From positions 1 to 28,786 of IMG/VR virus record IMGVR_UViG_3300029915_000113: 28,786 nt of DNA. One strand, given 5' to 3'. The translations under genes and the position numbers were made by a program. The notes under the pieces are model-generated. The model worked only from the letters and a program-made list of their open reading frames with translations, was not told the DNA's origin and made no database searches. Positions 14,228 to 26,589 of the stretch are shown piece after piece. The number at the start of each line of letters is the position of its first letter. Position 1 is the stretch's first letter. This DNA is from a virus.

Positions 14228-14566
14228 TCAGAGACGGTGGTCGGCCTTGACGACAAGAGTGATCGAGATCCCGTCCTGGGATGCCTCGGTCGAGAGCACC
14301 TCGTAATTCGTGGCCGTGGAGGGACCGAACTGTGTGAGCGAGATCCGGTCTCCCACCTGCGGGTTAGGACCCACGGTCGAGCTATTGGCAAAGATGACCT
14401 CGAAGTGAACCTCGTCGGTGTTTCCCGCGAGCGTCAGGTTGTAGCCCTCGGCCAACTGCGTGCAGGTACACTGGATGTTCGAGTACGTCGACCATGCGAA
14501 CGTCGCAGGAAGGTCGGCAATAGCCGCGATCAGGTCCGCATCGAATACTGTGACATCAATCGCCAT
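14228..14566 (-). CDS. Small head-completion/neck protein candidate
   Basis: The start is at the ATG at 14566 (MAIDVTVFD), which overlaps the upstream gene's stop region; a TTG seven codons further up is possible. The 112-residue protein has an N-terminal helix (DADLIAAIADLP) and a beta-rich remainder with GDRISLTQFGPS and a final LVVKADHR. Small beta proteins in this place act as head-tail adaptors in lambda-like phages (gpFII position). It is the first clear morphogenesis gene after the accessory cassette, so the head-to-neck order resumes here. Confidence 0.5.
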   Translation of the reverse strand: MAIDVTVFDADLIAAIADLPATFAWSTYSNIQCTCTQLAEGYNLTLAGNTDEVHFEVIFANSSTVGPNPQVGDRISLTQFGPSTATNYEVLSTEASQDGISITLVVKADHRL

Positions 14567-14825
14567 CACCCAAACGGGGGGCGTCAATGTCCTTCAACCG
14601 ATTGATGTTCTCGATGTACTCCTTTGCGTCGGCATCGAGTTGCCGAAGGTACACCTGCGCACTATGCAGGGCTGGAATCGAGATCTCGGGGACAAGATTC
14701 GTGGCACAGAGAAGCTGCTGATCCTCCCGGGATTTGACCATAAGGAGAATAAACCCGTGGGATCCACAGTGCTTCTTCGCACCCTCCACGCACTTGTCTA
14801 TCAGGGCTTGTCCGAAGTCGTCCAC
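14556..14825 (-). CDS. Small protein of unknown function at the end of the accessory cassette
   Basis: The GTG start at 14825 lies 25 bases inside the end of the E1-alpha-like gene. The 89-residue product (with two Cys in the first half, and the block LLCATNLVPEISIP) is helical and soluble, with a C-terminal helix (DADAKEYIENINRL). I do not recognise it. It links the cassette to the first neck gene, whose start overlaps its stop, and could belong to either module. There is no Shine-Dalgarno site, so translation probably depends on coupling. Confidence 0.55.
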   Translation of the reverse strand: MDDFGQALIDKCVEGAKKHCGSHGFILLMVKSREDQQLLCATNLVPEISIPALHSAQVYLRQLDADAKEYIENINRLKDIDAPRLGDGD

Positions 14826-15463
14826 GGATTCGATTTAGGCTGGAAGGTAATGTGGTGTTTGCAACCACTTCCAGCATGAGGATACGTGGGAGCGTATCTA
14901 TACCTGACAACGTGAGGCCCCCATTCTCTCCGGTGGTCTGATCCAAAGCGTGCCGAAACAGAAACATCCACCGATCTATCGTTGTCCTCTATGATGAAGG
15001 TGCAGGGGAGATGATGGCCTTGAACGTATGAAACTGCCTCATAAAAATGTCCCTCATCGGTCGCTCCGTCCCCCAGGAAGCACCACACCATCGACTTCGA
15101 TCCCGACTCCTGCAGCGACTTTGCTATCCCGGCAGCGATGCAGCAGTTCCCCGCAAGGATGGCAGAGGTCAGGAAGTGCATGGCTCGGCTGTAGAGGAAC
15201 ATCGACTGCCCGTTCTGGATACGGGTCATCAGGTCTTCAGGGGAACCGCCGGCGAGGAGCCAGTGGTAATGCGAACGGTGAGATCCGAGGATCCAGTCCC
15301 CCTCTTTGATCTGACGGAAGATCTCGATCAGCGGTCCCTCGTTCCCCCCCGCCAGGTGCATCAGGTAGGGCAGGTGTCCTTCCTCCCACCCCTGCTTCAC
15401 TAGGTTCTCGAAGGCGATCAGGTCGTTGCGGGTGGCGTGTTCCATAAAGTTCAGTACATCCAC
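14801..15463 (-). CDS. Thiamine-diphosphate enzyme, short E1-alpha-like subunit
   Basis: The 220-residue protein carries the ThDP/magnesium motif of transketolase-like and 2-oxoacid dehydrogenase E1 enzymes: GDG at 131-133 followed by N161, with the typical ATDEGHFYEA after GDG. Upstream, GSHRSHYHWLLAGGSPEDLM, then MHF, and AAGIAKSLQESG match the active-site and cofactor-side blocks of E1-alpha. Family members usually have about 320-400 residues; this one stops soon after a YRYAPTYPHAGSG block. No other frame downstream continues the fold, so it looks naturally short. It would hold the PP domain and needs a PYR partner, supplied by the gene at 17339-17860. The product is probably a carbanion-forming enzyme acting on a 2-oxoacid or ketose. 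It overlaps the FkbM gene by 13 bases. Confidence 0.75.
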   Translation of the reverse strand: MDVLNFMEHATRNDLIAFENLVKQGWEEGHLPYLMHLAGGNEGPLIEIFRQIKEGDWILGSHRSHYHWLLAGGSPEDLMTRIQNGQSMFLYSRAMHFLTSAILAGNCCIAAGIAKSLQESGSKSMVWCFLGDGATDEGHFYEAVSYVQGHHLPCTFIIEDNDRSVDVSVSARFGSDHRREWGPHVVRYRYAPTYPHAGSGCKHHITFQPKSNPWTTSDKP

Positions 15464-16020
15464 TGATGCAGGACTATCCCCCGGGCAGCGTAGGATTTGA
15501 TGATGGCATCCCGTTCGACATGGGATCCACCCCTCTCGATGTGGTGAAACTCCACGAAGATCTCGACCACCCGAGGCAGGATGATCGGGTCTTTCAGGAG
15601 CTTCAGGAGAATCGAGAATTCGGAGCCCTCGCAGTCTAGCTTCAGCACGATCCGGTCCTTCGGGTCGGTCAGGGCGTCGATGGAGTCGATGATGCCGGCA
15701 GCGAACACCCGCAGGTCGTACCCCGTGGTCAGGTTCAGGGTCTCATGGTCGCTGGCGAGGTAGGGCTGGAAGGAGTCACCCCGGGGGTCGTCCTTCTGGT
15801 GGAAGGTGAGGGTGCCGCTGTCGCCCCTAATCCCGAACGGGCAAACGTGGATCTTGTACCGACTCGACCACTTCTGCACCTCCTGCATCAGTTCGGGCAG
15901 GTGGCGCGGGGACGGCTCGAAGCACCAGACATCCCATCCGTCGAAGTTGTTCGTCTTGTTCAGGTAGTCCGAAAAGGTCTGCCCGATGTTGGCCCCTACG
16001 TCGAAGAAGTGGTTTTTCAT
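15451..16020 (-). CDS. FkbM-family SAM methyltransferase
   Basis: The 189-residue protein has the FkbM order: FFDVGANIGQTF at 5-16 (SAM-binding loop), FEPSPRHL (acidic end of strand 2), and LKLDCEGSEFSILL near residues 130-143, the hallmark of the family. FkbM enzymes usually O-methylate sugars or polyketides and are common in surface polysaccharide clusters. Size is near the family core with no extra domain. It starts in an ATGA overlap with the upstream small gene and lies next to the E1-alpha-like gene and the dehydrogenase. It may methylate a sugar made or transferred by the cassette. Confidence 0.85.
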   Translation of the reverse strand: MKNHFFDVGANIGQTFSDYLNKTNNFDGWDVWCFEPSPRHLPELMQEVQKWSSRYKIHVCPFGIRGDSGTLTFHQKDDPRGDSFQPYLASDHETLNLTTGYDLRVFAAGIIDSIDALTDPKDRIVLKLDCEGSEFSILLKLLKDPIILPRVVEIFVEFHHIERGGSHVERDAIIKSYAARGIVLHQWMY

Positions 16021-16274
16021 ATGTGGTGGGTCGTGTCCCGAACGAACTTCGCAGCCCTTCTGATGAGCTCATCCTCTGTGAAGCTGCGCCCCTCGAAGTT
16101 CATCGTGTGCAGCTTGCGGTCGTGGACGTAGCTCAGAGCGGTATGCTTTCCCCCAGAGAACACAGCGACGATCCCCTGCGCCGTTATCACATGGCCTTTG
16201 ATCCACTGGGCGCAGGTCGAGTGCTCGGTGGTCAGGCGCGAGATGCTGCCTCGAATGGGGATCGATTCAGACAT
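16017..16274 (-). CDS. Small protein of unknown function
   Basis: The 85-residue protein is beta-rich in its first half, with IVAVFSGGKHTALSYVHD, and has a C-terminal helix after GRSFTEDELIRRAAKF. It overlaps the dehydrogenase stop by 8 bases and the FkbM start by 4 bases (ATGA), so it is made in fixed coupling with them. I recognise no family and see no membrane segment or cofactor motif. Confidence 0.6.
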   Translation of the reverse strand: MSESIPIRGSISRLTTEHSTCAQWIKGHVITAQGIVAVFSGGKHTALSYVHDRKLHTMNFEGRSFTEDELIRRAAKFVRDTTHHI

Positions 16275-17337
16275 GATGAAGTTTGATGCTCGAGTACGGT
16301 TCCGAGGTCCAGATCATCACCCTGCTCGCCTCGCCTTTGCGGACCAGTGCGATCCCTGCGTTCACATCGACCAGATGGAATCGGTGGGTCACTATGGCGT
16401 CGACCTTCAGCACCCCGGCCCTCCATGCAGCGATGTACCTCGGGATGTCCCGGTCAGGCTGGAAGCCCCCGCCCTGCGTGGCTGTTATGGACTTCCCTTC
16501 GCCCCCGAACATATCATCGACCTTCTGGATCACCAGTTCCTCGGTGGGCTTGGGGTGGCCTACCATGATGAACCGTCCCGAGGGTCCGAGCAGCTTCAGG
16601 GAGTCCGAGATGGCCTCTGGGTTCCCCGAAGTCTCGATCACCACATCGTACCGAAGGGGAGGAAACTGGGTGTCGGTTAGGCCGATGAACTCGGTCGCCC
16701 CCATCGACAGGGCCGTGATCTCCTTGCCTGGGTGAATGTCGCAGCACCCGATCCGAGCCGCACCCGCCATCTTGCAAGCCCTGATGAGGTTCGCCCCAAG
16801 CCCCCCGCAGCCCACGATCAGGACCGACTCCCCCATTTTGACCTTCGCCACCCCTTCTACCGTCCCGAGGGCCGTCGACAGGCCGCAACCGAGCAAAGCT
16901 GCCAATTCTGGGGGGGTGTCGTCTGGGACGGGTGTCAGGCGATTCTCTGAGGCTACACAGTGGCTCGCCAGGGTAGCCACACGGCCCGATCCCACCCTGC
17001 CGTGGCTGCTGCCATAGGATGGGAGGTCAGACTCGATTCCCGAGGCTTTGCGCCAGTGTAGCACCACCTTCTGACCCGCCTTTACCCGGGACACCCCCGG
17101 CCCGACCTGGAGGACGGCGCCGCACCCCTCATGCCCGAGCAGGTGTGGCAAGTGGCCTGCATTACCCTTCTCCCCCCTGATCTCCTGGAGTTGGGCCCCG
17201 CAGATCCCCGAGCAGATCATCTCGACCAGCACCTGCCCGTAGGTCAGGGGGTTCGTGTTCACCTCCCAGAGGTCGAGGGGTTCGTTCAGGCGGGTCAGGA
17301 CTGCCGCCCTGACGTTCAGCATCACATCGGACGTCAT
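16267..17337 (-). CDS. Medium-chain zinc alcohol/polyol dehydrogenase lacking the structural-zinc cysteines
   Basis: The 356-residue protein has the MDR fold. The catalytic-zinc ligands are visible: C46 in SGICGAQ, H69 and E70 in GHEG, and C151 in LLGCGLST. The Rossmann loop GCGGLG is at 176-181, and an acidic residue (D200, in CCDIHPGK) points to NAD rather than NADP. The lobe that usually carries four Cys for the structural zinc (about 97-112) has none. The usual CGSD is CGAQ. Related enzymes oxidise threonine, sorbitol, butanediol or deoxy-inosamine; substrate cannot be read from the sequence. One base separates it from the E1-beta-like gene, and it overlaps the next gene by 8 bases. Confidence 0.85.
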   Translation of the reverse strand: MTSDVMLNVRAAVLTRLNEPLDLWEVNTNPLTYGQVLVEMICSGICGAQLQEIRGEKGNAGHLPHLLGHEGCGAVLQVGPGVSRVKAGQKVVLHWRKASGIESDLPSYGSSHGRVGSGRVATLASHCVASENRLTPVPDDTPPELAALLGCGLSTALGTVEGVAKVKMGESVLIVGCGGLGANLIRACKMAGAARIGCCDIHPGKEITALSMGATEFIGLTDTQFPPLRYDVVIETSGNPEAISDSLKLLGPSGRFIMVGHPKPTEELVIQKVDDMFGGEGKSITATQGGGFQPDRDIPRYIAAWRAGVLKVDAIVTHRFHLVDVNAGIALVRKGEASRVMIWTSEPYSSIKLHHV

Positions 17338-17338
17338 T

Positions 17339-17860
17339 CTAAAGGAGGTCTTTGAACTCGAAAAGGGCTGTGGATTGGTGCGAGGAGAACGCCTTCGCGT
17401 AGTGTTCCGCGATGCTCTCCTCCTTCGTTATCGAGACCACCGGGAAGGAGACCATGCAGGACAGGGCGTGAGCGAAGTCCCGGGTGTGGGTCGGACCCGT
17501 GTAGAGGGGCTTCTGGGAGTTCCCGACCACGATCCGAAGAATCACGGCAGGCTCGAATTCACCCCGGCTGATCCGCTTCATGGCGTCCAGGTGGTTCACG
17601 ATGGCATCGAGGGCGTTCAGCATGAAGTCAGCCCGCTCGATGTAGACCAGGGGCTTCAGGCCAGTCAGGGCCATGCCTATCGCCAGCCCCACCATCAGGT
17701 TCTCGGCCACAGGGGTCTCGACACATTGCTCCTTGGCTACCCCTGCAAATGTCCCACCCCCCCTGCTAGGCTCCCGTACCCCGTACCCGATGAACCGGGA
17801 GCGAGGGTCTGTCCCCATCGCCGTCATCGCCGCCGTCAGGTTGTCTTTGTAGGTGCTCAT
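17339..17860 (-). CDS. Thiamine-diphosphate enzyme, E1-beta-like subunit reduced to the PYR domain
   Basis: The 173-residue protein matches the N-terminal half of E1-beta/transketolase PYR domains: TPVAENLMVGLAIGMALTGL with the probable catalytic E53 (which activates ThDP), then PLVYIERADFMLNALDAIVN. Typical E1-beta subunits run to about 325 residues with a C-terminal transketolase-C domain; that whole domain is missing here. The frame is intact, stops at TAG, and the next gene starts two bases later, so it is not an obvious frameshift remnant. It should pair with the E1-alpha-like subunit at 14801-15463. No E2 acyl-carrier or E3 gene is present, so a classic oxidative dehydrogenase complex is not encoded here. 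Confidence 0.75.
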   Translation of the reverse strand: MSTYKDNLTAAMTAMGTDPRSRFIGYGVREPSRGGGTFAGVAKEQCVETPVAENLMVGLAIGMALTGLKPLVYIERADFMLNALDAIVNHLDAMKRISRGEFEPAVILRIVVGNSQKPLYTGPTHTRDFAHALSCMVSFPVVSITKEESIAEHYAKAFSSHQSTALFEFKDLL

Positions 17861-18009
17861 TCTTTGTCCTTCTCGATAATCTCGTCTATCCGCTCCCTGC
17901 TGGTGTAGGTGGACGAGCGTTTGATGATGGCCTCTAGGCGCTCACGGTCTTTCAGGAGTTCCATCATCTTCGGGCCCCAAAACTCGGCTTCCTGAAATTG
18001 GGAGGGCAT
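17857..18009 (-). CDS. 50-residue charged helical protein
   Basis: This short frame is defined by overlaps: its ATG shares a base with the TAA of the GT9-like gene (TAATG), and its stop overlaps the E1-beta-like ATG (ATGA). The product begins MPSQFQEAEFWG and continues as a charged helix (LLKDRERLEAII, then RERIDEIIEKDKE). It fills an otherwise empty gap exactly, which supports a real gene. It could be a small partner of the ThDP enzyme; that is only inference from position. Confidence 0.65.
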   Translation of the reverse strand: MPSQFQEAEFWGPKMMELLKDRERLEAIIKRSSTYTSRERIDEIIEKDKE

Positions 18010-18812
18010 TAGAGGATCCCTTCCAGTTGCAGCATCTTCTTCGCCTCCAGCACCGACTTACAGCAGACCGTGTTCGGGGCGATGTTCACATCCTCGTGAT
18101 CGAGCAGGATGATCCTCCGCTTCACCGTCTCCTTGTTCCAGATGTTGAAGGTCGGCCAACTCGGCCCCGTAGATGCCCCCACGATGTACTTGCAGGACAG
18201 GGAGAGCGTCCCGATGGAGGTCACCGTGAAGTTCCCCTGCGTGCAGGGAACACCCACCCGACACTTCTGCGTCGTGATGACCGAGTACTTCTTCGCCAGG
18301 GCTGCGACCATCTGGGTCATCTGGTCCTCGCTGTACCCCTGCCACTGGTTCGACATCGGCTTTGAATTGATGATGAGGATGTCGAACGGATCGCACAGCT
18401 TCGTGGGCTTATTGATCGCAGGGTAGTCGAACAGGAGGTCGTAGGGATCGGAGAAGGGAGACTCGAGCTCCATCCGTTCGGCAAGGTGGTCGAAGAACTT
18501 CAGGTAGAACGCAGCGTAGTCGTTCTTCAGCGGGTGGGTGTCCCAGAAGCCCCCTGCGTTCTTCCATGCGTCGATTGAGTTCAGGGGCTTGTAGTCGAGA
18601 GGGATCAGGCGAAGGTTCGGTAGGTCGTAGACCACCTCCGAAAGCTGATCCATGTAGCACAGGTGGCAGGCGTGCGTAAACTGGGTGTGGGGGTTCAGCT
18701 TCGCAAGACCACGCAGGAAGTGCAGGTGCGCGAGGTTGTCCCCGAGCCGATAGGCGCAGAAGGTGTCAACGCTGCTCGGGAGCATCTTGGGGTTTAGGAT
18801 CAGGCTTCGCAT
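18009..18812 (-). CDS. GT9-like (heptosyltransferase-type) glycosyltransferase
   Basis: The 267-residue protein resembles GT-B enzymes of the ADP-heptose transferase family. Near the N-terminus YRLGDNLAHLHFLRGLA matches the GD-x-x-(3)-L block of family 9, and near 200-220 SCKYIVGASTGPSWP matches the GAxTGP/H donor-site block. It is shorter than typical heptosyltransferases (about 320-350), and the His often seen after the donor block is missing. It most likely transfers a sugar to a surface glycan. The start at 18812 lies inside the end of the small membrane gene (47-base overlap), and a Met nine codons later is an alternative. Confidence 0.55.
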   Translation of the reverse strand: MRSLILNPKMLPSSVDTFCAYRLGDNLAHLHFLRGLAKLNPHTQFTHACHLCYMDQLSEVVYDLPNLRLIPLDYKPLNSIDAWKNAGGFWDTHPLKNDYAAFYLKFFDHLAERMELESPFSDPYDLLFDYPAINKPTKLCDPFDILIINSKPMSNQWQGYSEDQMTQMVAALAKKYSVITTQKCRVGVPCTQGNFTVTSIGTLSLSCKYIVGASTGPSWPTFNIWNKETVKRRIILLDHEDVNIAPNTVCCKSVLEAKKMLQLEGIL

Positions 18813-19008
18813 TTTTGGTGAGTTGGTTGGCTATCGAGAACAGCTGAGTCACCAGCTTGTTCATCGTCTCGGTCGTGGGGAAGTACCGCATGAACAGGAG
18901 GACCGACCTGCGGGTGCCGAAGTAGAACCCCATCGACAGGCCCATGATGATTCCGACACCCCAAGCAGCAGAGCAGAGAACAGGGGTCCAGATGTACCAG
19001 TTTGTCAT
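18766..19008 (-). CDS. Small membrane protein with C-terminal helix
   Basis: The start is the ATG at 19008, which overlaps the upstream stop as ATGA; a frame five codons longer exists. The 80-residue protein has a hydrophobic N-terminal stretch (residues 6-32, with WGVGIIMGLSMGFYFG), a basic RR turn, and a soluble helix with TMNKLVTQLFSIANQL, then a Pro/Asp/Lys tail. It could anchor a glycosyltransferase complex at the membrane or act in lysis; no family is recognised. Confidence 0.6.
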   Translation of the reverse strand: MTNWYIWTPVLCSAAWGVGIIMGLSMGFYFGTRRSVLLFMRYFPTTETMNKLVTQLFSIANQLTKNAKPDPKPQDAPEQR

Positions 19009-19142
19009 TTGATTTTCTTCCACCGTTTCAGCGCAGCCTTGCGCATCTTCTCGGGGTCGCGTGCCTTCGCCTTCCCGGTCCCGGCCTTGCCCCCCTTGGA
19101 CCCGAGCAAGGGTGCCGTGATGCTGGTAATCTTGGCCGTCAC
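19005..19142 (-). CDS. 45-residue basic protein
   Basis: A GTG start at 19142 has GGAGG seven bases upstream and overlaps the previous small gene as GTGA; a longer frame from a GTG at 19202 would overlap that gene fully. The product has a short N-terminal strand (VTAKITSITAPLL) and a strongly basic Gly/Lys tail ending with KALKRWKKIK-like residues (RKAALKRWKKIK). It could bind nucleic acid or membranes. Its stop overlaps the next ATG. Confidence 0.6.
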   Translation of the reverse strand: MTAKITSITAPLLGSKGGKAGTGKAKARDPEKMRKAALKRWKKIK

Positions 19143-19285
19143 TTCATCACCTCCATTTGGATCAGCGGGATGGCAATGGCAATCGAGCATCCAATGACCC
19201 ACAGCCAGCAGTAGAACCGCAGGACCTCATCCATCTCGGACTCGCCCGGGGTCTTGTGGGTCAACCAATAGAAAAAAGCCTTCAC
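19139..19285 (-). CDS. 48-residue single-span membrane protein
   Basis: This gene starts with GTG at 19285, overlapping the glycosyltransferase stop as GTGA, and ends at 19139, overlapping the next GTG by three bases. The product has a short aromatic N-terminus (VKAFFYWLTHKTPGE) and a membrane segment (LWVIGCSIAIAIPLIQ) near the end. The exact fit between neighbours and the hydrophobic segment support a true gene. It could be a membrane partner for the glycosyltransferase. Confidence 0.6.
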   Translation of the reverse strand: MKAFFYWLTHKTPGESEMDEVLRFYCWLWVIGCSIAIAIPLIQMEVMK

Positions 19286-21240
19286 TCGGAATCCTTCGGG
19301 CAGTCGGGATTCCTTCGGTTGAAGACCTCGAACCCCTGCCTATAATTGTCCGTCGCGTTCTGCCGCAGGTATGTCTCATCCCACTTCTCGACAGGCACCC
19401 CGAGGAAGAACGGGTGCTGGTGGTCGAACGTGATCTCCTTCCGAAGATCCAGAACGACCTCATCTCTCCATGCCCGATGTGAGAACTCGTTATCCGAGAA
19501 CATCGAGTGGTACTCGGGGCTGAAAAGGTAGGGCTCGCCCATCACTTCCTTGCTCGGATCGAGCGCGTTCTTCGTCCCGGTCGGGTCTCTCTGCTGCTCG
19601 TACCTTGCCCGGGTCAGGATCGCCATGCACAGGAGCCCATCGGTCCTGTGGCCGTCGTGGATCGCCACCACCAGGGGAACGTCGCCCACATTCGCATCTT
19701 CGCCGCCCCGAGCCTTCGTCTCCTTCTCCAGGGCTCGCCAGATCGCTTCGTCCCAGTGCATCGGGGGAAGCCAATCGTCCGACACCTGTACCAGAACCTT
19801 ACCCTGCGAGATCGAGGCTAGGACGTTCCACGCCTTCACGCACCCCGCCGGCTCCTCGATGATGACATGGCGATACTGCTTCAGGGCCTCGACCGACTCC
19901 TTGTCGTCTGCGTCGATCCCAAAGGTGTGCTCGATTGCAATCGGGATGAAGGCAGTCCGAAAGAACCTGTTCCGCGTTTCGAGTGCCTCCCTCGGCCTGC
20001 CCCGGGTTGCATGGAGGAGCGAGAACCGAGCCCCCGCCCGGGTGAAAATGCCATCCTCCAGTTCCATCGCTCCCTGCGCCATGCCAGAGGCCCTAAGAGT
20101 GCGGGTGCGCAGCGTCAGCCCCTTCTCACCGATGAACCGATCACTCTGCGGGAGACCCGTGTCTGCCCCCCGCCTGATCGTCTGCATGAACTCCGAGGCA
20201 CGCCTTGCCCTGTTCGGGGATCCTGACTCGAGCTCCAGTTCGGCCATCACCCCCCAGGGATCCCGGGAACCCGGCTCGATCCGAAGCGCAGCCCATGCCT
20301 TTTCGAGGGCCGTCATGTAGTCCCCCTTGATCCGAAGCATCTCGGCAAGGTTCAGGAGCGTCCCCTGCTTCAGCTTCGAGAGGCAGTCGGTCTGCGCCGT
20401 GATGTTCGCCCACCTGAATGCATCAGCGAACCATCCCTCGTTCGTCTGTTCGTGCCCCCACAGGTAGAAGTACTCCCGATGGATCGCCTCCGCGAACCCG
20501 TGGATGTAGCGCAGGGCGAACAGCATGATCCGCAGGTTCCTCATCTTGTCCCTCTGCTTTTCCACGGTCGGAGCGTGCGTGTAGATCACCTTCTCGATGT
20601 AGGCCCCCTTCGGCTTCCCAGGCGTCAGGCACTTCGAGAAGTCCATGTGGCAGTTCTCATGCACGGGCTGAGACCAGTGGCTGATCCCCGTCCTGAACAT
20701 CCTCTCCCGGTAGTTCGACTCCCCAGAGGTCGGGATCGAATAGTGGAAGTAGAACATATCGTGGTCGAACTTCAGGGAGCAGGCGCGGATCTCGGCTGCG
20801 TCAGCCTCGGAGATCACATCGTCCAGATCCCCCCAAAACTGCCAATCGCATGTCGCAAGAGCCCATGACTGATTCCGAGCCGCAGCGAAGTCGTCCACAT
20901 GGGGCCAAGTCGCAGGATCGCCTTCGATGATCTCGGGGGAGTCGGGACGGCAGAAAGGCAGGTGCTGGTTCAGGTACTCCCCGCCCTTGAACTTCTTCCC
21001 GTTCTTGTGGCACCACTCCTTCGCCAGCGCCATCGTTCGGTCGTGCGTGTTCCTGCCCAGGGCTCGGACCATGCAGAGCTCGTCAAAGGCAGGCCCGAAG
21101 CAGTCGAGGAACCGGATCACATGGGCTTCCTCGTTCCCGGTGATGACGCAGAGCGAGATGGTCGGCGTCTTGAAAGGAGCCGTTAGCTGCTTGATCCTGT
21201 CATTCTGCGCGTCGTAACCGGGGGGAGCGATGTCGGCCAT
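19282..21240 (-). CDS. Tandem-domain GT2-type glycosyltransferase
   Basis: The 652-residue protein has two GT-A domains. Domain 1 (about 25-250) opens with ISLCVITGNEEAHVIRFL, the GT2 nucleotide-sugar start, and has WGDLDDVIS near residue 138 as the DxD-type metal site. A helical, TPR-like middle part follows (about 260-390, with LLNLAEMLRIKGDYMTALEKA). Domain 2 (about 405-640) opens RFSLLHATRGRP and has QVSDDWLPP near 488 as its metal site, with FDHQHPF near the end as a possible acceptor-side block. It probably adds one or two sugars in sequence to a glycan or protein. It is the first gene after the capsid terminator, and no ribosome-binding site is visible. Its stop overlaps the next gene (GTGA). 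Confidence 0.75.
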   Translation of the reverse strand: MADIAPPGYDAQNDRIKQLTAPFKTPTISLCVITGNEEAHVIRFLDCFGPAFDELCMVRALGRNTHDRTMALAKEWCHKNGKKFKGGEYLNQHLPFCRPDSPEIIEGDPATWPHVDDFAAARNQSWALATCDWQFWGDLDDVISEADAAEIRACSLKFDHDMFYFHYSIPTSGESNYRERMFRTGISHWSQPVHENCHMDFSKCLTPGKPKGAYIEKVIYTHAPTVEKQRDKMRNLRIMLFALRYIHGFAEAIHREYFYLWGHEQTNEGWFADAFRWANITAQTDCLSKLKQGTLLNLAEMLRIKGDYMTALEKAWAALRIEPGSRDPWGVMAELELESGSPNRARRASEFMQTIRRGADTGLPQSDRFIGEKGLTLRTRTLRASGMAQGAMELEDGIFTRAGARFSLLHATRGRPREALETRNRFFRTAFIPIAIEHTFGIDADDKESVEALKQYRHVIIEEPAGCVKAWNVLASISQGKVLVQVSDDWLPPMHWDEAIWRALEKETKARGGEDANVGDVPLVVAIHDGHRTDGLLCMAILTRARYEQQRDPTGTKNALDPSKEVMGEPYLFSPEYHSMFSDNEFSHRAWRDEVVLDLRKEITFDHQHPFFLGVPVEKWDETYLRQNATDNYRQGFEVFNRRNPDCPKDSE

Positions 21241-21269
21241 GCGCCAATGCTCAAGCGGGTTTCACCCCA

Positions 21270-21283
21270 TTGCACAAGTGCAA
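21270..21283. promoter_or_regulatory. 14-bp perfect palindrome, operator-like
   Basis: TTGCAC-AA-GTGCAA has 6-bp arms around a 2-base centre. It lies between the capsid terminator and the glycosyltransferase start. A dimeric regulator or the promoter of the cassette could use it; I see no clear -10 box. Confidence 0.5.
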
Positions 21284-21312
21284 AAGAAAGGGGCCGAGTG
21301 TTAGTCGGCCCC
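21280..21312 (-). terminator. Intrinsic terminator after the major capsid gene
   Basis: On the minus strand a perfect 8-bp stem GGGGCCGA/TCGGCCCC (21312-21290) closes a 7-base loop and is followed by TTTCTTTTG. It lies 28 bases after the capsid stop. This is the only clear intrinsic terminator I find inside the minus-strand late region, and it separates the head genes from the accessory cassette. Confidence 0.85.
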
Positions 21313-21340
21313 GAAACCCAGTCAGAGGAACCCCAAAAGA

Positions 21341-22312
21341 TCAGGCATAGCCCGTGCCGATCAGCTGCGCACCGGGGGCGAGAACCACCTTTTCCGAGGT
21401 GTTCTGCCGGGAGCGGATGATCGTGGACCGCAGGCGTTCTTGGCGGTAGGACTCAACCTGGAAGATGTCGGCGTCCTGCTCCCAGAAGATCGTGAAGGCC
21501 ACCGACCCGTTGAAGTAGGCGTCGGGACCGCTCGGCTCGACCACCGTCCCAAGCCACATCAGGGAGTCACCCCAGATGTTCGTGAGCGAGGAGGCTGCGG
21601 AGTTCTGTGCGCTGCCGTCGTAGGTGGAGCGACCGATCAGAACCTGCTTCACTTGGAGCGCATCGGCCATCGCCTGCGTTCCGAGGGTGAGGAAGGCATC
21701 CGTCGAGATCGTGCCCCTGATCCTGTTCTGCAGCTTCGTGGAGGCGCGAGCCCGCAGGAAGTTGTTGTAGGACATGACCAGCGTGAGGTTGTCGACGTTC
21801 TCCCCGCGACCCTGGATCTGCGCCTTGGCCGAGTCCACATCGAGACCGATGTCGAACGAGGCGAGGTTGGTCGAGGTGTAGGTGACCGCTGCCGTGGTCG
21901 TGCTGAAGGTCGAGGGAGCCTGAAGGAGGTTCGCCACTCGAATCTCATGGCCGATTTGCACCTGCCGGTAGGCCCAGACCGTCTCGCGGGCCTCCAGGTC
22001 GAAGAAGCGACCGATGGTGCGAGCGTTCTTGTCGGGGACCACGGCCTCGATGCCGTACTCGAGGGTCGTGTAGGTGTCGGTTGTGTACGCACGCGCAATG
22101 CGCGGGTAGTCACCACCAGCCGAGATGGACTTCACCTCGTTGCGGAGCAGGTTGGCCCCGTTCTTCTGGATGACCGGGTACTGTCCACCCTCGGTCTGAA
22201 CCGGGATCGGGGGGCAGCACTTGGGTCCGATGTAGAGCTCCGACTGAAGAAAAGCTTCTTCAACGACGCCCCGAAGATCTGCGCGAAGTACCGCGCCGTT
22301 TGAAGGAAACAT
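21341..22312 (-). CDS. Major capsid protein
   Basis: The 323-residue protein fits the HK97-fold capsid group, with a lambda gpE-like size. Features include the GGQYPVIQKNGA block (about 42-53), a long helix with EARETVWAYRQVQIGHEIRVANLL (positions about 107-130), LTLVMSYNNFLRARAS near 177, and strand-rich C-terminus with SEKVVLAPGAQLIGTGY. Gene order (protease, decoration protein, capsid) supports it. It has no Shine-Dalgarno site; its 25-base leader resembles that of the decoration gene. A strong terminator follows. Confidence 0.82.
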   Translation of the reverse strand: MFPSNGAVLRADLRGVVEEAFLQSELYIGPKCCPPIPVQTEGGQYPVIQKNGANLLRNEVKSISAGGDYPRIARAYTTDTYTTLEYGIEAVVPDKNARTIGRFFDLEARETVWAYRQVQIGHEIRVANLLQAPSTFSTTTAAVTYTSTNLASFDIGLDVDSAKAQIQGRGENVDNLTLVMSYNNFLRARASTKLQNRIRGTISTDAFLTLGTQAMADALQVKQVLIGRSTYDGSAQNSAASSLTNIWGDSLMWLGTVVEPSGPDAYFNGSVAFTIFWEQDADIFQVESYRQERLRSTIIRSRQNTSEKVVLAPGAQLIGTGYA

Positions 22313-22337
22313 GGTGAGAGTGGATTAGGTGTTAGGG
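22313..22337 (-). promoter_or_regulatory. Leader of the capsid gene with an AACACCTAATCC core
   Basis: The 25 bases before the capsid ATG and the 25 before the decoration-gene ATG (22729-22753) can be aligned without gaps, with 16 matches. Both contain AACACCTRATCC starting 21 bases before the start codon. Neither leader has a purine-rich ribosome-binding site. Confidence 0.55.
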
Positions 22338-22356
22338 ATGCGAGTGAAAGAAAGGA

Positions 22357-22728
22357 TCAGAATGACGGCAGGGCCTCGATGACCGCGCCCGTGTTCGTGC
22401 CCGAGCCCTGGAGGGCAACGCCCCACAGGAGAACCCCGGTCATCGCGCTCACGCACAGGTAACCGTTCGCCGTGGTGTAGAGGGATGCGCCGGGGGTGAT
22501 CGCGGTCGTTCCGTTTCCGGTCACGGCGACCTGCATGGACCCGACACCGTTGAAGCGGACCTTCGGGATCTCGAACGAGAGCCCCTGAACGTCCGACTGA
22601 AGGACGCCCTGGCCCTGCTCGCCACCGGACGGGCCGATGGCACCGTTTGCGCTGACGGTGACACGGATGAACGCAGACATCGCCGTGTTGACGGTAAAGC
22701 CGCGTGTGAAGTCATTTTGAGTTGCCAT
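22357..22728 (-). CDS. Capsid decoration (cement) protein
   Basis: The 123-residue protein is beta-rich and shaped like phage decoration proteins found between protease and capsid genes: a middle block of strands (GSMQVAVTGNG), then ANGYLCVSAMTGVLLWGVALQGS with the small-residue turn typical of the family, and IEALPSF at the end. Such proteins form trimers on the capsid and stabilise the packed head. The position between protease and major capsid genes strongly supports it. Confidence 0.7.
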   Translation of the reverse strand: MATQNDFTRGFTVNTAMSAFIRVTVSANGAIGPSGGEQGQGVLQSDVQGLSFEIPKVRFNGVGSMQVAVTGNGTTAITPGASLYTTANGYLCVSAMTGVLLWGVALQGSGTNTGAVIEALPSF

Positions 22729-22753
22729 GTTAGAGGGGGATCAGGTGTTGCGG
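22729..22753 (-). promoter_or_regulatory. Leader of the decoration gene with an AACACCTGATCC core
   Basis: Its core aligns to the capsid-gene leader at the same distance from the ATG. No Shine-Dalgarno-like purine tract is present. Confidence 0.55.
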
Positions 22754-22769
22754 GGAAGGTGGCCGGGGA

Positions 22770-24056
22770 TCAGCGGGAGAACTCGATCCGCCTGCCCGAA
22801 TTGATGAAGGCGCGGTGCGCGTCGGCACCACATTCACCGATGGCCTGGGAGAAAGCCTTCGTCTTGGACCCCGTGGCCTTGAAGTGCTTCTGCGCGGACT
22901 CGATGAACTTGTCCTCGACCTTCGCTCCGTTGTCCGCGTGGTCGGTGCTGGCACCGGGAGCCGCAGGGACCGCAGCGGTTTGCCCCAACTTTGCGGAGAA
23001 ATCTTTCGCAATCTGCTGCGCGATGGTGCGTCCGAAAGAGCGGAGTTGTTTGTCGGTCATAGAGTATTTCTTGAAGCGGTTCGGCACTCCACCCTTGGCG
23101 ATGGCCGGGACGTTGCCATCGGCATCGCCTGCGGCAGCGGCGTCAGCGTCCGAGTCGGCATCCGCATCGGCGTCACCGTCTGCGTCCGCGTCGGCATCTG
23201 CATCAGCGTCGGCATCCGCATCAGCATCGAACGGGAGAGGGTTCTGCTTGTTCGCATTCGCAGCGGGACCGACCTGCGGGGCCTGCGACTTATTGGCATC
23301 TCCGCTCGGGAGCGGGGCACCCGGGGCATTGCTCGGGGCGAGGGCCGCGACTGCAGCCTCCAACTTGGCGAAGCGAGCGAGGTGCCCCTTCATGGCTTCC
23401 ATGTTCGCCTTGTGCGCAGCGGCCATGTCAGCGAGGGTCGGAAGGGCTGCGTTGTCGTCGCTGTTCTTCGCAGCGGGTGCCTTCTGGTTCGAGGGTGAGG
23501 CCTTGGGGGAAGATTGAAGTGGCATCTTACCCTGTCCCTTTGCGTCAACCGTGCGCGCGGTATCACCCCGGGAAAATAGACCTGTCGGGCAGGCCGCAGG
23601 CTCGGTCACAAGGTCGCAGGAGAAGATGTTCGCGCAGCGCACGCATATCTTCTCGTCCACGATCTCATCGGGTCCGATGAATGAGACCGAGAACCCGAAG
23701 GAATCGGGCATCGTCGACGCCATCTCGAAGATCTTCGCCTTGTTCGGCTCGGAGTCGAAGATGTTGAAGTCGGCTCGGAGTGTATCCCCGTCAATAATGA
23801 AGTTGTTCAGGTATCCGATGATGTCCATCACCCCTGACCCGTGGTCGGCCTTCACCTTCAGTCCCGTCTTGTACTGCTCCGCCGACTCAAGAACCTGCTG
23901 CAGGGTGATCGCGTCGACGTAGAGGGGCTGACCTAGTACCGGATCCGAGTGGCCCAGGACTGCCCCCACGGTAATCATCCCGACACCACGGATGCACCCG
24001 TTTGTCTGGTCGATCTGCTGAAGCGAGAACGCCTGCGCGAAATTGTGCTCGGTCAT
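22770..24056 (-). CDS. Prohead maturation protease with scaffold-like C-terminal half
   Basis: The 428-residue protein has a protease domain (about 1-165): KADHGSG with the probable catalytic His at 72, GYLNNFIIDGDTLRADFNI, and SFGFSVSF with the probable catalytic Ser at 123, matching the order in herpesvirus/phage prohead proteases. After CPTGLFSRG the rest is low-complexity: Ala/Lys/Ser-rich, a helical segment (about 205-245), an Asp-Ala-Asp run (277-313) and a helical C-terminus. That half probably acts as scaffold and is degraded after assembly; such protease-scaffold fusions are known. It sits between portal and decoration genes. The start follows TAGTTGACG without a Shine-Dalgarno site. 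Confidence 0.75.
   Translation of the reverse strand: MTEHNFAQAFSLQQIDQTNGCIRGVGMITVGAVLGHSDPVLGQPLYVDAITLQQVLESAEQYKTGLKVKADHGSGVMDIIGYLNNFIIDGDTLRADFNIFDSEPNKAKIFEMASTMPDSFGFSVSFIGPDEIVDEKICVRCANIFSCDLVTEPAACPTGLFSRGDTARTVDAKGQGKMPLQSSPKASPSNQKAPAAKNSDDNAALPTLADMAAAHKANMEAMKGHLARFAKLEAAVAALAPSNAPGAPLPSGDANKSQAPQVGPAANANKQNPLPFDADADADADADADADADGDADADADSDADAAAAGDADGNVPAIAKGGVPNRFKKYSMTDKQLRSFGRTIAQQIAKDFSAKLGQTAAVPAAPGASTDHADNGAKVEDKFIESAQKHFKATGSKTKAFSQAIGECGADAHRAFINSGRRIEFSR
23121..23228 (-). repeat. Degenerate hexamer repeat coding an Asp-Ala-Asp run
   Basis: Codons for Asp and Ala alternate, seen on the plus strand as GCATCN/GCGTCN hexamers, and encode residues from about 277 to 313 of the protease-scaffold protein, with single Gly or Ser breaks. 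Slippage could change its length between relatives. Confidence 0.85.
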
Positions 24057-24075
24057 ACCCGAGCGGGGTCGTCAA

Positions 24076-26001
24076 CTACATGAGCGCAAGCAACTGAGCG
24101 ACCGTCATGGACTTCTTCGCACCGCTCGGGGTCGTGACCTTCCATGTGACCACCTTCGTCTTGTCGTTCCGCTGCGCATCCCCGATTAGGTAGCCCTTCG
24201 ACTTCAGGGCATCCTGGATGCGACCGATGCTCGGCTTCTTATCGTTCAGGGGCTTCACAGCATTGACCTGATCCGATGAAGGTTTCGCCTTGTCCCCGAC
24301 CAGTTCGGTCAGGGGCAGGGATGCGTTCATCTGAACCGGGGCAGCAGGCAATGCCGTGGTTCCCGATCCGTCTCCTGCGATGGCGTCCGATGCCGCAGCA
24401 TTTGCAGCCGCAGCCTGGGACGGGGATGTGGCGGGAGGCGGTGCTGCCGGCGCGATGAACCCGTTCGGCGTGCGAACAGAAAGCATCGTGAGGGCTGTCT
24501 CGAACGGCACATCCTGGCTCTGCGAGATTGCCTTCGCCATTGAGATGAGTTGCTCGGACTCCTGCGCCATGATCTGCATCTCTGCCGTGGCATCGAGTCC
24601 TGTCTCCCCGAACCAAGAATCCAGCGTGAGCATCCCGGCCTGAACCTCCTTGATCGCGGATGCCGAGTCCCTGCCGGCATCGATTGAGATCGCCGGAGCG
24701 AACTGCCACACGCCCTTGTCCCACCCTGGGGTATAGGGGATCGTCCCGTTCGCAATTCCCTCGATCAGCAGGGTGTTCTTCACCTTGTCGAGGAACTGAC
24801 GCTGCATCAGTCGCTGGTAGTACTCGATCACGCGATGTGCCTGCTGCGCGTCCATGCGAGCGTTCGGGCCTCCGAGCTTTGAGAGGTCGTAGAGGAACCC
24901 GTAGGGGAGATTCAGGGCGAGACCCATGATGCGGATCAGGGTGTCGAGGTAGGTCTGGAACGTGCCGCTCGGACGCTCCGACTTAATGAACTCGTACTTG
25001 TCGGTCGAGCCCGCCCACTGGATCATCCCCGGGTTTAGGTTCTGCTCCTGCAGGGGTTTCCCCGCGATGTCGGTATCGTCGTTCGTGACAAAGGCAGAGG
25101 GATCCTGGAAGGGACCGGCGTGCGGGGTGTAGCCGATGGCCGCGTGCAGGTTCTCGAACTTCGTGCCGATCCTGCAGTACTCCATGATCTCCTTCAGATC
25201 CCGGGCCTCGGTGAGGACAGGGGCGAAGGGGGTGATCCCCCGGTACTGGTTCACCCTGCGCGGGTCGAAGATGTGCAGCATCTGGTTCGCAGGAACCTCG
25301 ACGGGGTTCACATAGACGTTCGCCTTCGTGCGCCAGTACACTCGGAAGGAAACAGGCTGGCCCGTCTGCAGATTGATCGTGATCCCCTGCAGGTAATTGT
25401 CCGCAGCCGAGATCATGTATATGCCGCCGATCCGGTCGCCCTCGATCCCGCACAGCTTCAGGAGACCGTCCTGCGCACCCTTCGTCCACTGGTTGCCGTA
25501 GTCCCCATCCCGAAGCATGGACTTGAAGGTGATCTGCGCCAGCGTCTCGATCCCGAACCTGCCCGAGAGGTCGAGAGAATTGTTCATCCGGTCATCGAGA
25601 TACTCCCCGTAGGGAGGATTCAGTTCGCTCTCCCCGGTCTGAGGACGGTACTTGATTCTTCCGAAGGCGTACATCGAGAGCTTGTCGATGATCGACTGGA
25701 ACAGGCCAAAGTTCTGCTCGAGGTCCCGAACTTGCCGGATCAGTTGAAGGCGTTCGGGAAAGGCACGGTAGTCTTCCGGTCCCTGCATCGTTGTGGCGTT
25801 CAGCCTGAACCTGTCGCTGCGACTCGCCTCGTAGCTGAACGCACGCCTCGCGCGGATCCTATCCGTTCCCCACTTCGGGAAGACCTTGCCGATGGCGATG
25901 TCGAATGCCGTGGGCTTCGCCATCTCCTCGGGGTTCAGCCTGTCGCGCATGATGCGGGTGGGGTCGTTGTATCCTGTCTGACGCTTGGAAAAGAGGGGCA
26001 T
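24076..26001 (-). CDS. Portal protein (lambda-type)
   Basis: The 641-residue protein has the lambda-family portal layout: Arg-rich N-terminus, RIRARRAFSYEASRSDR (about 48-64), YGNQWTKGAQDGLL with membrane-distal strands, HIFDPRRVNQYRGITPFAPVL (the conserved block near 245) and LNLPYGFLYDLSK (near 365). After about residue 520 an Ala/Pro-rich linker and a small C-terminal domain (SIGRIQDALKSKGYLIGDA) extend it past the core. Portals form the dodecameric DNA gate. Neighbours (gpW-like gene upstream, protease downstream) agree. Confidence 0.85.
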   Translation of the reverse strand: MPLFSKRQTGYNDPTRIMRDRLNPEEMAKPTAFDIAIGKVFPKWGTDRIRARRAFSYEASRSDRFRLNATTMQGPEDYRAFPERLQLIRQVRDLEQNFGLFQSIIDKLSMYAFGRIKYRPQTGESELNPPYGEYLDDRMNNSLDLSGRFGIETLAQITFKSMLRDGDYGNQWTKGAQDGLLKLCGIEGDRIGGIYMISAADNYLQGITINLQTGQPVSFRVYWRTKANVYVNPVEVPANQMLHIFDPRRVNQYRGITPFAPVLTEARDLKEIMEYCRIGTKFENLHAAIGYTPHAGPFQDPSAFVTNDDTDIAGKPLQEQNLNPGMIQWAGSTDKYEFIKSERPSGTFQTYLDTLIRIMGLALNLPYGFLYDLSKLGGPNARMDAQQAHRVIEYYQRLMQRQFLDKVKNTLLIEGIANGTIPYTPGWDKGVWQFAPAISIDAGRDSASAIKEVQAGMLTLDSWFGETGLDATAEMQIMAQESEQLISMAKAISQSQDVPFETALTMLSVRTPNGFIAPAAPPPATSPSQAAAANAAASDAIAGDGSGTTALPAAPVQMNASLPLTELVGDKAKPSSDQVNAVKPLNDKKPSIGRIQDALKSKGYLIGDAQRNDKTKVVTWKVTTPSGAKKSMTVAQLLALM

Positions 26002-26005
26002 GGCG

Positions 26006-26284
26006 TTATCCGGTCGGGGGAGAAGGTGGGGTGGCCTGACCGTAGTTCATATTCCCGTATGTGAAAGACTTGCTCACCCCGTTCGCCCTGTCGATGGCCC
26101 TCTGAACCTCAAGGAGCGTCTGACGAACCTCCGCGATGTTAGCCCGGGTGAACATACGACCGCCCAGGGAGTAGGACTGGCCCGCCGTGCTGATCCCGGT
26201 CAGGACCGCGATGTAATTGTTCTGGATTGTTGTCAGCGTGGCTGACGGCAAACCGAAGAAGACTCCTTGTACTCCTGTAGCCAT
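26006..26284 (-). CDS. gpW-like head-tail joining protein
   Basis: The 92-residue protein has a small helical N-terminal part with VFFGLPSATLTTIQNNYIAVL, a strand region GGRMFTRANIAEVRQTL and a charged helix with EVQRAIDRANG, then a short Tyr/Gly/Pro tail. Proteins of this pattern between large terminase and portal genes correspond to lambda gpW. An AAGG/GAGG tract before the ATG and the TAGTTGACG motif 16 bases further up precede the start. Confidence 0.7.
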   Translation of the reverse strand: MATGVQGVFFGLPSATLTTIQNNYIAVLTGISTAGQSYSLGGRMFTRANIAEVRQTLLEVQRAIDRANGVSKSFTYGNMNYGQATPPSPPTG

Positions 26285-26331
26285 TTAACCTTGCCTCATG
26301 CGTCAACTAGGAACCACATCTTGAAAAAGTC

Positions 26332-26589
26332 ATGTCCTTTTTCACTAGGAGGCAGCATGGGGGAAAGAGAACGGGAGCAGGCCGTCCCCCGCTTCCCGAG
26401 GAGGACAAGCGAAACCAGAGGTCGATCTCCATGCCCGATGAGGCGTGGCAGGAACTCATCACACAGGCGTACCAGTTCGATCTCACTCAGGGAGAATACG
26501 TCGAGCATCTGGTGAGCGTCGAGGCTGCGCGACGGGCACGGGAGTTGTTCGAGTCAGGTCGCCAGCCAGAGCAGCAGACCCCGCAGTAA
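26332..26589 (+). CDS. Small ribbon-helix-helix-like protein, antisense to the large terminase 3' end
   Basis: The 85-residue protein runs against all its neighbours. A basic Gly/Arg N-terminus with TGAGRPPLPEEDKRNQRSI is followed by SISMPDEAWQELITQAYQF and LTQGEYVEHLVSVEAARRA, a strand-helix-helix pattern common to small DNA-binding regulators of the Arc/MetJ kind. Its start lies in a 198-base gap between gpW and the terminase stop, and its last 107 bases overlap the terminase gene. No Shine-Dalgarno site is seen. Codon pattern and motif favour a true gene; an accidental antisense frame is the alternative. Confidence 0.6.
   Translation: MSFFTRRQHGGKRTGAGRPPLPEEDKRNQRSISMPDEAWQELITQAYQFDLTQGEYVEHLVSVEAARRARELFESGRQPEQQTPQ

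Follow-up and report, generated by a model that had tools for sequence, protein, structure and literature searches.

Several described systems resemble parts of the locus reported here. Virion glycosylation is reported for the mycobacteriophages Che8, Corndog and Myrna, as far as the citing articles relate it (Freeman 2023, cited in PMC12363180 and PMC12619734), and chlorovirus PBCV-1 carries out autonomous glycosylation of its major capsid protein (MCP; PMC7826918, PMC5408694). GmaR transfers N-acetylglucosamine (GlcNAc) to flagellin (PMC9638930). Two-subunit enzymes of the alpha-keto-acid dehydrogenase type transfer a C2 unit to keto sugars, and split transketolases are proposed to act likewise (PMC12247030). 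The present analysis concerns a gene cassette in the virus record IMGVR_UViG_3300029915_000113, a stretch of 28,786 bases that was analysed as a whole and is called the window below. The cassette, at 21240-14556 on the minus strand, consists of non-structural genes with small overlaps, placed between the MCP gene and the neck genes. It is best explained, at roughly even confidence, as a swappable glycan locus in which a constant glycosyltransferase (GT652) is combined with an exchangeable module making and attaching a variable sugar, and which probably puts a C2-branched sugar on one of the virion proteins.

The minus strand of the window has a lambda-like gene order, with terminase (GpA ATPase), lambda-family portal, protease, a small decoration-like protein and MCP ahead of the cassette, and neck genes (neck1, with its ATG at 14566), tail tube, tape measure and tail proteins downstream of it. 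The original prediction, that this order is broken after MCP by about 6.7 kb of non-structural genes, was confirmed by the gene order. Its enzyme calls, namely a tandem GT2, a GT9-like transferase (GT9l), an FkbM methyltransferase (FkbM), a Zn dehydrogenase (ADH) and a split thiamine diphosphate (ThDP) enzyme with halves PP and PYR, were borne out by profiles and folds, and the several tiny proteins noted in between are p47, p45, p80, p50, p85 and p89 (Table 1). Contig L098 is 100% identical to the window over 19035-28102, which includes the capsid-cassette junction, and the same order occurs in other phages; a chimeric contig or assembly artefact, one of two objections raised beforehand, is thereby ruled out. 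The other objection, that related phages might lack any conserved cassette, fails as well, since relatives checked for the same gene set and order conserve it.

Five members of the MCP family of the window are known (the window, L001/L099, L102/L172, L211 and L171), and GT652 directly follows MCP in all five; the L171 contig ends inside GT652, so the rest of its cassette is not covered. A search for this MCP in annotated phage genomes found nothing. In L001/L099 (contig 3300046712_000022) the main genes stand in the same order, with enzymes at 68-78% protein identity. Between the window and L001/L099, Ka/Ks is 0.14-0.22 for GT652, GT9l, PYR, ADH, FkbM and PP (0.14 for GT652), a range comparable to that of the structural genes (MCP 0.14, portal 0.10, terminase 0.15), and judged by these ratios the cassette genes are under purifying selection. 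L102 and L211 contain GT9l, PYR, ADH and PP. FkbM, carried by the window, L001, L106 and L109, is missing from these two, so methylation is an accessory part of the cassette. The proposal of a glycan-building and methylating cassette thus keeps its first half, which is strongly supported by the conserved place, the purifying selection and the exchange of sugar modules described next, whereas methylation is reduced to an optional addition.

About forty loci of the PP search belong to a second group, phages with a P22-coat-like MCP. This MCP has no detectable similarity to that of the window, and the terminase, portal and protease are related. The order in the second group is MCP, a 99-aa head-tail attachment-like gene, GT652, GT9l, PYR, radical SAM/SPASM, PP and neck. 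A search with the second-group MCP, taken to its best 80 loci, gave 64 usable ones (16 end too early), and GT652 lies after MCP in all 64. The stretch from GT652 to neck was complete in 51 second-group loci, each carrying one of five modules. Module a (27 of the 51) is GT9l-PYR-radical SAM-PP; module b (four: L296, L298, L305 and L312) is GT9l-split transketolase-methyltransferase-radical SAM; module c (nine) combines a 161-aa methyltransferase with a 222-aa protein; module d (eight) has a 211-aa methyltransferase and a protein resembling the 222-aa one; and module e (three) has DUF5672, a methyltransferase and again a protein resembling the 222-aa one. The 222-aa proteins have no Pfam match and show a GT9-like RLGD motif that was seen by eye. 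Pairs of loci with different modules, for example L253 (module a) and L267 (module d), have nucleotide identities of 92% in MCP, 95-96% in GT652 and 83% in neck, with no similarity in the module. Modules are exchanged at a fixed site. In some pairs, such as L253 and L260, identity shifts within GT652, here from 79% at the 5' end to 94% at the 3' end, which suggests recombination inside this constant gene.

The two halves of the ThDP enzyme have PDH (pyruvate dehydrogenase) E1 alpha (PP) and E1 beta (PYR) as their closest solved relatives. PP keeps the GDG...N ThDP motif, present in 167 of 179 PP sequences, and PYR aligns to E1-beta with the Glu and His positions kept. PYR and PP are short, at 173 and 220 aa compared with 324-341 and 365-382 aa, and the alignment stops at the PYR and PP domains; of the features of a PDH E1, the ThDP motif and the Glu and His positions are therefore present, and the E1-beta C-terminal domain and a full-length E1-alpha are not. 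The survey of the cassette genes revealed no E2 lipoyl transferase or E3 gene. In other phages the halves form a single protein in the order PP-PYR (PHROG 34187, 405 aa); in the window they are separate and in reverse order, with ADH, p85 and FkbM in between.

The ThDP enzyme keeps one oxidoreductase partner. Among 198 loci with a partner within 3 kb, E1-type genes occur with ADH in 86 and with radical SAM in 95, transketolase-type genes with ADH in 13 and with radical SAM in 4, and both oxidoreductases in none. When oxidoreductases were collapsed at 90% identity, the 79 resulting clusters divided as 55, 18, 5 and 1 in the same order. These loci were picked by similarity, fetched before the second-group MCP search and partly drawn from shared contigs or sampling sites, and the counts are not population frequencies. 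In one collected set, all 81 ADH-bearing loci have the ThDP enzyme beside ADH, and Pfam and NCBIfam matches bear out the transketolase-type pairs. The strict alternation, together with the replacement of the E1-type by the transketolase-type enzyme in the same slot, argues that oxidoreductase and ThDP enzyme form the chemical core of the module. Transferases lie near the pair in the window, L001, L102, L211 and many other loci, so that the arrangement looked for in a C2-branched keto-sugar synthase, a ThDP pair adjoining an oxidoreductase and glycosyltransferases, is present. The radical SAM profile matches the sugar enzymes BlsE and DesII, and also MoaA and SuiB. In 2-deoxystreptamine biosynthesis, an MDR dehydrogenase and a radical SAM dehydrogenase likewise interchange.

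Related gene sets were also observed elsewhere. In L148 (6759-9651), split transketolase-type genes and a methyltransferase stand in place of the E1-type pair in an otherwise similar cassette. The phage contigs L079 (470 kb) and L073 (111 kb) contain PYR, radical SAM and PP, and in L079 this set lies amid methyltransferases and transferases. Further viral contigs have homologues in sugar clusters with a split transketolase. Cellular homologues, from Desulfobacterales, Deltaproteobacteria and archaeal bins, adjoin radical SAM, and the archaeal bins have GT9, epimerase or sugar-kinase genes close to the ThDP homologues. When genomes were scanned with the PP profile, at least five genuine relatives emerged from cellular bins (L084-L088), one of which, L087, could in fact be a contig of a phage; L084 and L088, from Desulfobacterales and Nanoarchaeota bins, contain the ThDP pair and two radical SAM genes.

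GT652 is one 652-aa protein with two GT2-like halves and TPR between them. A profile of the GT652 family picks up GmaR (E 8e-17) and SunS (E 9e-10), and Foldseek on the GT652 model gave ThuS/SunS as top matches (E 1e-10 to 1e-13). TPR profile matches fall at residues 295-335, within model helices that span 234-402. In phmmer, single GT652 sequences retrieved TPR proteins only or nothing, and the family profile was required. By analogy with these relatives GT652 is probably a protein-type glycosyltransferase, and it would act in the cytoplasm. The AF2 model of GT9l reached pLDDT 89 and pTM 0.86, and its best Foldseek matches are WaaC, GT9 and TibC (E ~1e-7), with prob 1.00 and TMq 0.53-0.60 for WaaC/TibC. 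The substrates of TibC and comparable GT9 enzymes are surface proteins of the host. A sequence search of solved structures with GT9l returned chance matches only, a fold search being required, and Pfam Glyco_transf_9 was not matched at E 0.1, for which reason the protein is named GT9-like only.

In the swappable glycan locus proposed here, the Zn dehydrogenase (radical SAM/SPASM in sister phages) would turn a hydroxyl group of an activated sugar into a ketone by oxidation, and PP with PYR (split transketolase in others) would attach two carbons at this keto position, so that the sugar becomes C-branched. GT652 and GT9l would attach the glycan to a co-made protein, likeliest a virion protein (capsid, decoration or tail), and FkbM would O-methylate it. 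The gene location points to a virion protein as acceptor, and the position of the cassette suggests late expression. Clear transmembrane (TM) segments occur only in p47 and p80; the enzymes have none, the borderline value of PYR falling in a folded-domain stretch, which makes a cytoplasmic acceptor likelier than a lipid-linked one.

Several points weigh against this proposal. The Pfam and open reading frame (ORF) survey of the cassette found no recognisable nucleotide-sugar synthesis genes, so that the host must supply the sugar. That a ThDP carboligase would act on a sugar is an analogy, drawn for an enzyme without the C-terminal domain of its relatives, and peptides and cofactors are further substrates of radical SAM/SPASM proteins. 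GT652 alone matches no solved glycosyltransferase, its link to GmaR and SunS depends on the family profile, and its full-length model is moderate, with pTM 0.53 and TM-scores of only 0.3-0.6. The ADH, GT9l and PP surveys cover the best 80 loci each. A bolder form of the proposal is more tentative: the site could be a glycotype locus, in which a constant protein glycosyltransferase behind the capsid gene is served by allele-like modules among phages with near-identical capsids, and a minimal ThDP carboligase, paired interchangeably with a Zn-dehydrogenase or a radical SAM enzyme, makes C-branched virion sugars as a serotype system.

Among the alternatives, modification of the host surface survives best and is unlikely. 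The enzymes would alter LPS (lipopolysaccharide), capsule or another surface glycan, in superinfection exclusion or in receptor masking that spares progeny from debris. GT9 relatives such as WaaC work on LPS, the cyanophage ADH-ThDP pair sits in large nucleotide-sugar clusters, and some bacterial and archaeal homologues lie amid GT9, kinase, epimerase and radical SAM genes; the strict head-to-neck location in two phage groups and the closeness of GT652 to peptide and flagellin transferases nevertheless argue otherwise. In addition, the Pfam and TM scan of the cassette turned up neither a transferase that spans the membrane nor a flippase, a polymerase or an enzyme of polyprenyl phosphate, and a test for gtr-type serotype conversion gave no Pfam match to a flippase or multi-spanning transferase, with transferases that lack a TM segment. 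Glycosylation of a host protein such as flagellin or pilin by GT652, altering receptor or motility during infection, is improbable: it would leave the fixed site behind the capsid gene without a reason, and without a known host its acceptor cannot be named, even if GmaR acts on flagellin (PMC9638930) and the fold of GT9l is near TibC. DNA hypermodification, with the transferases glycosylating modified phage bases, is very improbable, given that the cassette has no base-hydroxylating or thymidylate-synthase-like partner and its glycosyltransferase families match peptide and heptose transferases; the precedent is that phage glycosyltransferases can act on DNA bases, according to the article citing that work (Pyle 2024, cited in PMC12619734).

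Auxiliary central metabolism, in which the ThDP enzyme would serve energy supply in the manner of pyruvate dehydrogenase and the other genes would be coincidental cargo, was rejected as having hardly any likelihood. PP and PYR are indeed closest to PDH E1 alpha and beta among solved structures, but domains and partners are missing, namely the C-terminal parts of both subunits and an E2/E3 gene, and just one oxidoreductase partner, ADH or radical SAM, lies within 3 kb in nearly all loci, often with transferases near. Unselected moron-like cargo at a recombination hot spot, without a common role, is the least probable explanation of all: modules are exchanged and are unlike between sisters, but GT652 is present in 64 of 64 loci, purifying selection equals that on structural genes, and the ADH, radical SAM and ThDP combinations obey strict rules.

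Table 1. Features of the cassette and its boundaries in the window, in the direction of the minus-strand genes.
Feature	Coordinates	Strand	Evidence
Major capsid protein (MCP), left boundary	21341..22312	-	PHROG 1005 major head protein, E 1.6e-29
Terminator-like hairpin GGGGCCGA-CTAACAC-TCGGCCCC plus TTTCTTTT, in the MCP/cassette gap	21290..21312	-	Hairpin score and conserved position
GT652: GT-A (GT2-like) domain, TPR-like helices, second GT-A-like domain	19282..21240	-	Profile, Foldseek, PHROGs 13126 and 14945
p47, tiny, one hydrophobic segment, GTG start	19139..19282	-	KD19 2.09
p45, tiny basic protein	19005..19142	-	L001 homologue, dN/dS 0.37
p80, tiny, one hydrophobic segment	18766..19008	-	L001 homologue, dN/dS 0.31; KD19 1.77
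GT9l, divergent GT9-like (GT-B) glycosyltransferase, 267 aa	18009..18812	-	AF2 and Foldseek
p50, small ORF	17857..18009	-	ORF only; relatives none found
PYR half of ThDP enzyme (E1-beta type, without C-terminal transketolase domain), 173 aa	17339..17860	-	Transket_pyr 1.6e-7; C-terminal part of PHROG 34187
Zn-dependent MDR dehydrogenase (ADH)	16267..17337	-	ADH_N and ADH_zinc_N; PHROG 2640 E 1.2e-73
p85, lineage-specific small protein	16017..16274	-	ORF; not found in L001 or L102
FkbM-family methyltransferase, accessory	15451..16020	-	PF05050 4.7e-11; TIGR01444 1.3e-16
PP half of ThDP enzyme (E1-alpha type, ends after ThDP motif), 220 aa	14801..15463	-	E1_dh 1.4e-15; N-terminal part of PHROG 34187, E 1.5e-65
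p89, small protein ahead of neck genes	14556..14825	-	L001 homologue 48% identical, dN/dS 0.33; not found in L102
neck1, right boundary, first gene past cassette	14228..14566	-	Same neighbour in L001, L102 and L211

A T-tailed hairpin occupies the MCP-GT652 gap in all five MCP-family members, with sequences that differ (window, L099, L102, L171 and L211), and in the window, scanned on both strands, it is the sole hairpin reaching its score. Because a general terminator scan of the region gave a hairpin count no higher than in shuffles, the argument for it rests on its conserved position after MCP. A promoter scan found nothing above shuffles. Homologues of p45, p80 and p89 in L001/L099 have Ka/Ks of 0.31-0.37, and no counterpart of p47, p50 or p85 was found there. 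Within the cassette, p47 and p80 are two tiny single-TM-like proteins.

Elsewhere in the window, the putative protease (22770-24056, minus strand) contains a long Asp-Ala run (DADADADAD). A 989-aa protein with two glycine-rich domains (PF21722; 7288-10257, minus strand) is probably tail-tip or adhesin-like. On the plus strand, a single 732-aa ORF (823-3021) joins an SNF2-type helicase to an N6/N4 DNA methylase domain, and another ORF (14-463) consists of imperfect MWESSKVGV-type repeats without a Pfam match.

If the preferred reading of a swappable glycan locus holds, genes of the virion operon would give the particle a changeable sugar coat, and sister phages would differ in coat while sharing a capsid. 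Why phages glycosylate their virions would become directly testable, modules already exchanged in nature between nearly identical backgrounds would be to hand, and enzymologists would gain a minimal ThDP enzyme, so far uncharacterised, that works with either of two redox partners.

The open-access literature gave no account of a constant transferase behind a capsid gene with exchangeable modules, nor was the ThDP-oxidoreductase pair found described there as a unit. The expectation that this gene set and place are undescribed holds to that extent; the pairing of ADH with a ThDP enzyme is, however, annotated at another place in cyanophages S-SM2 and P-TIM68. These two have ADH and fused ThDP homologues in nucleotide-sugar clusters with phosphoheptose isomerase, kinase, nucleotidyltransferase and epimerase. 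The likeness is a homologous ADH adjoining a fused PP-PYR, annotated as transketolase central region-containing protein, whereas the genomes are large ones of Kyanoviridae and the cluster lies outside the capsid-neck site with nucleotide-heptose type genes of its own. Among enzymes that put C2 branches on keto sugars, KbDH of kibdelomycin, which is of the alpha-keto-acid dehydrogenase type, and YerE (PMC12247030) are the nearest; the shared feature is a two-subunit E1-type ThDP enzyme beside sugar genes, but the phage enzyme, known here from its genes, is a minimal PP and PYR pair without both C-terminal regions.

For the transferases, the glycocin S-glycosyltransferases SunS/ThuS and GmaR share with GT652 a GT-A domain followed by TPR-like helices, to which GT652 adds a C-terminal second GT-A-like domain and a phage structural location. 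The GT9 heptosyltransferases WaaC and TibC share the GT-B fold of GT9l, which is shorter (267 aa), 9-15% identical and without the Pfam GT9 match. PBCV-1 likewise encodes its own machinery for unusual MCP glycans, but is a eukaryotic large DNA virus with N-linked glycans and another gene set. In the mycobacteriophages, as far as the citing articles relate, phage-encoded transferases act on capsid and tail-tube proteins and the reports concern those transferases, whereas the locus described here, read from gene content, combines a constant glycosyltransferase gene with exchangeable ThDP, dehydrogenase and radical SAM modules at a fixed site.

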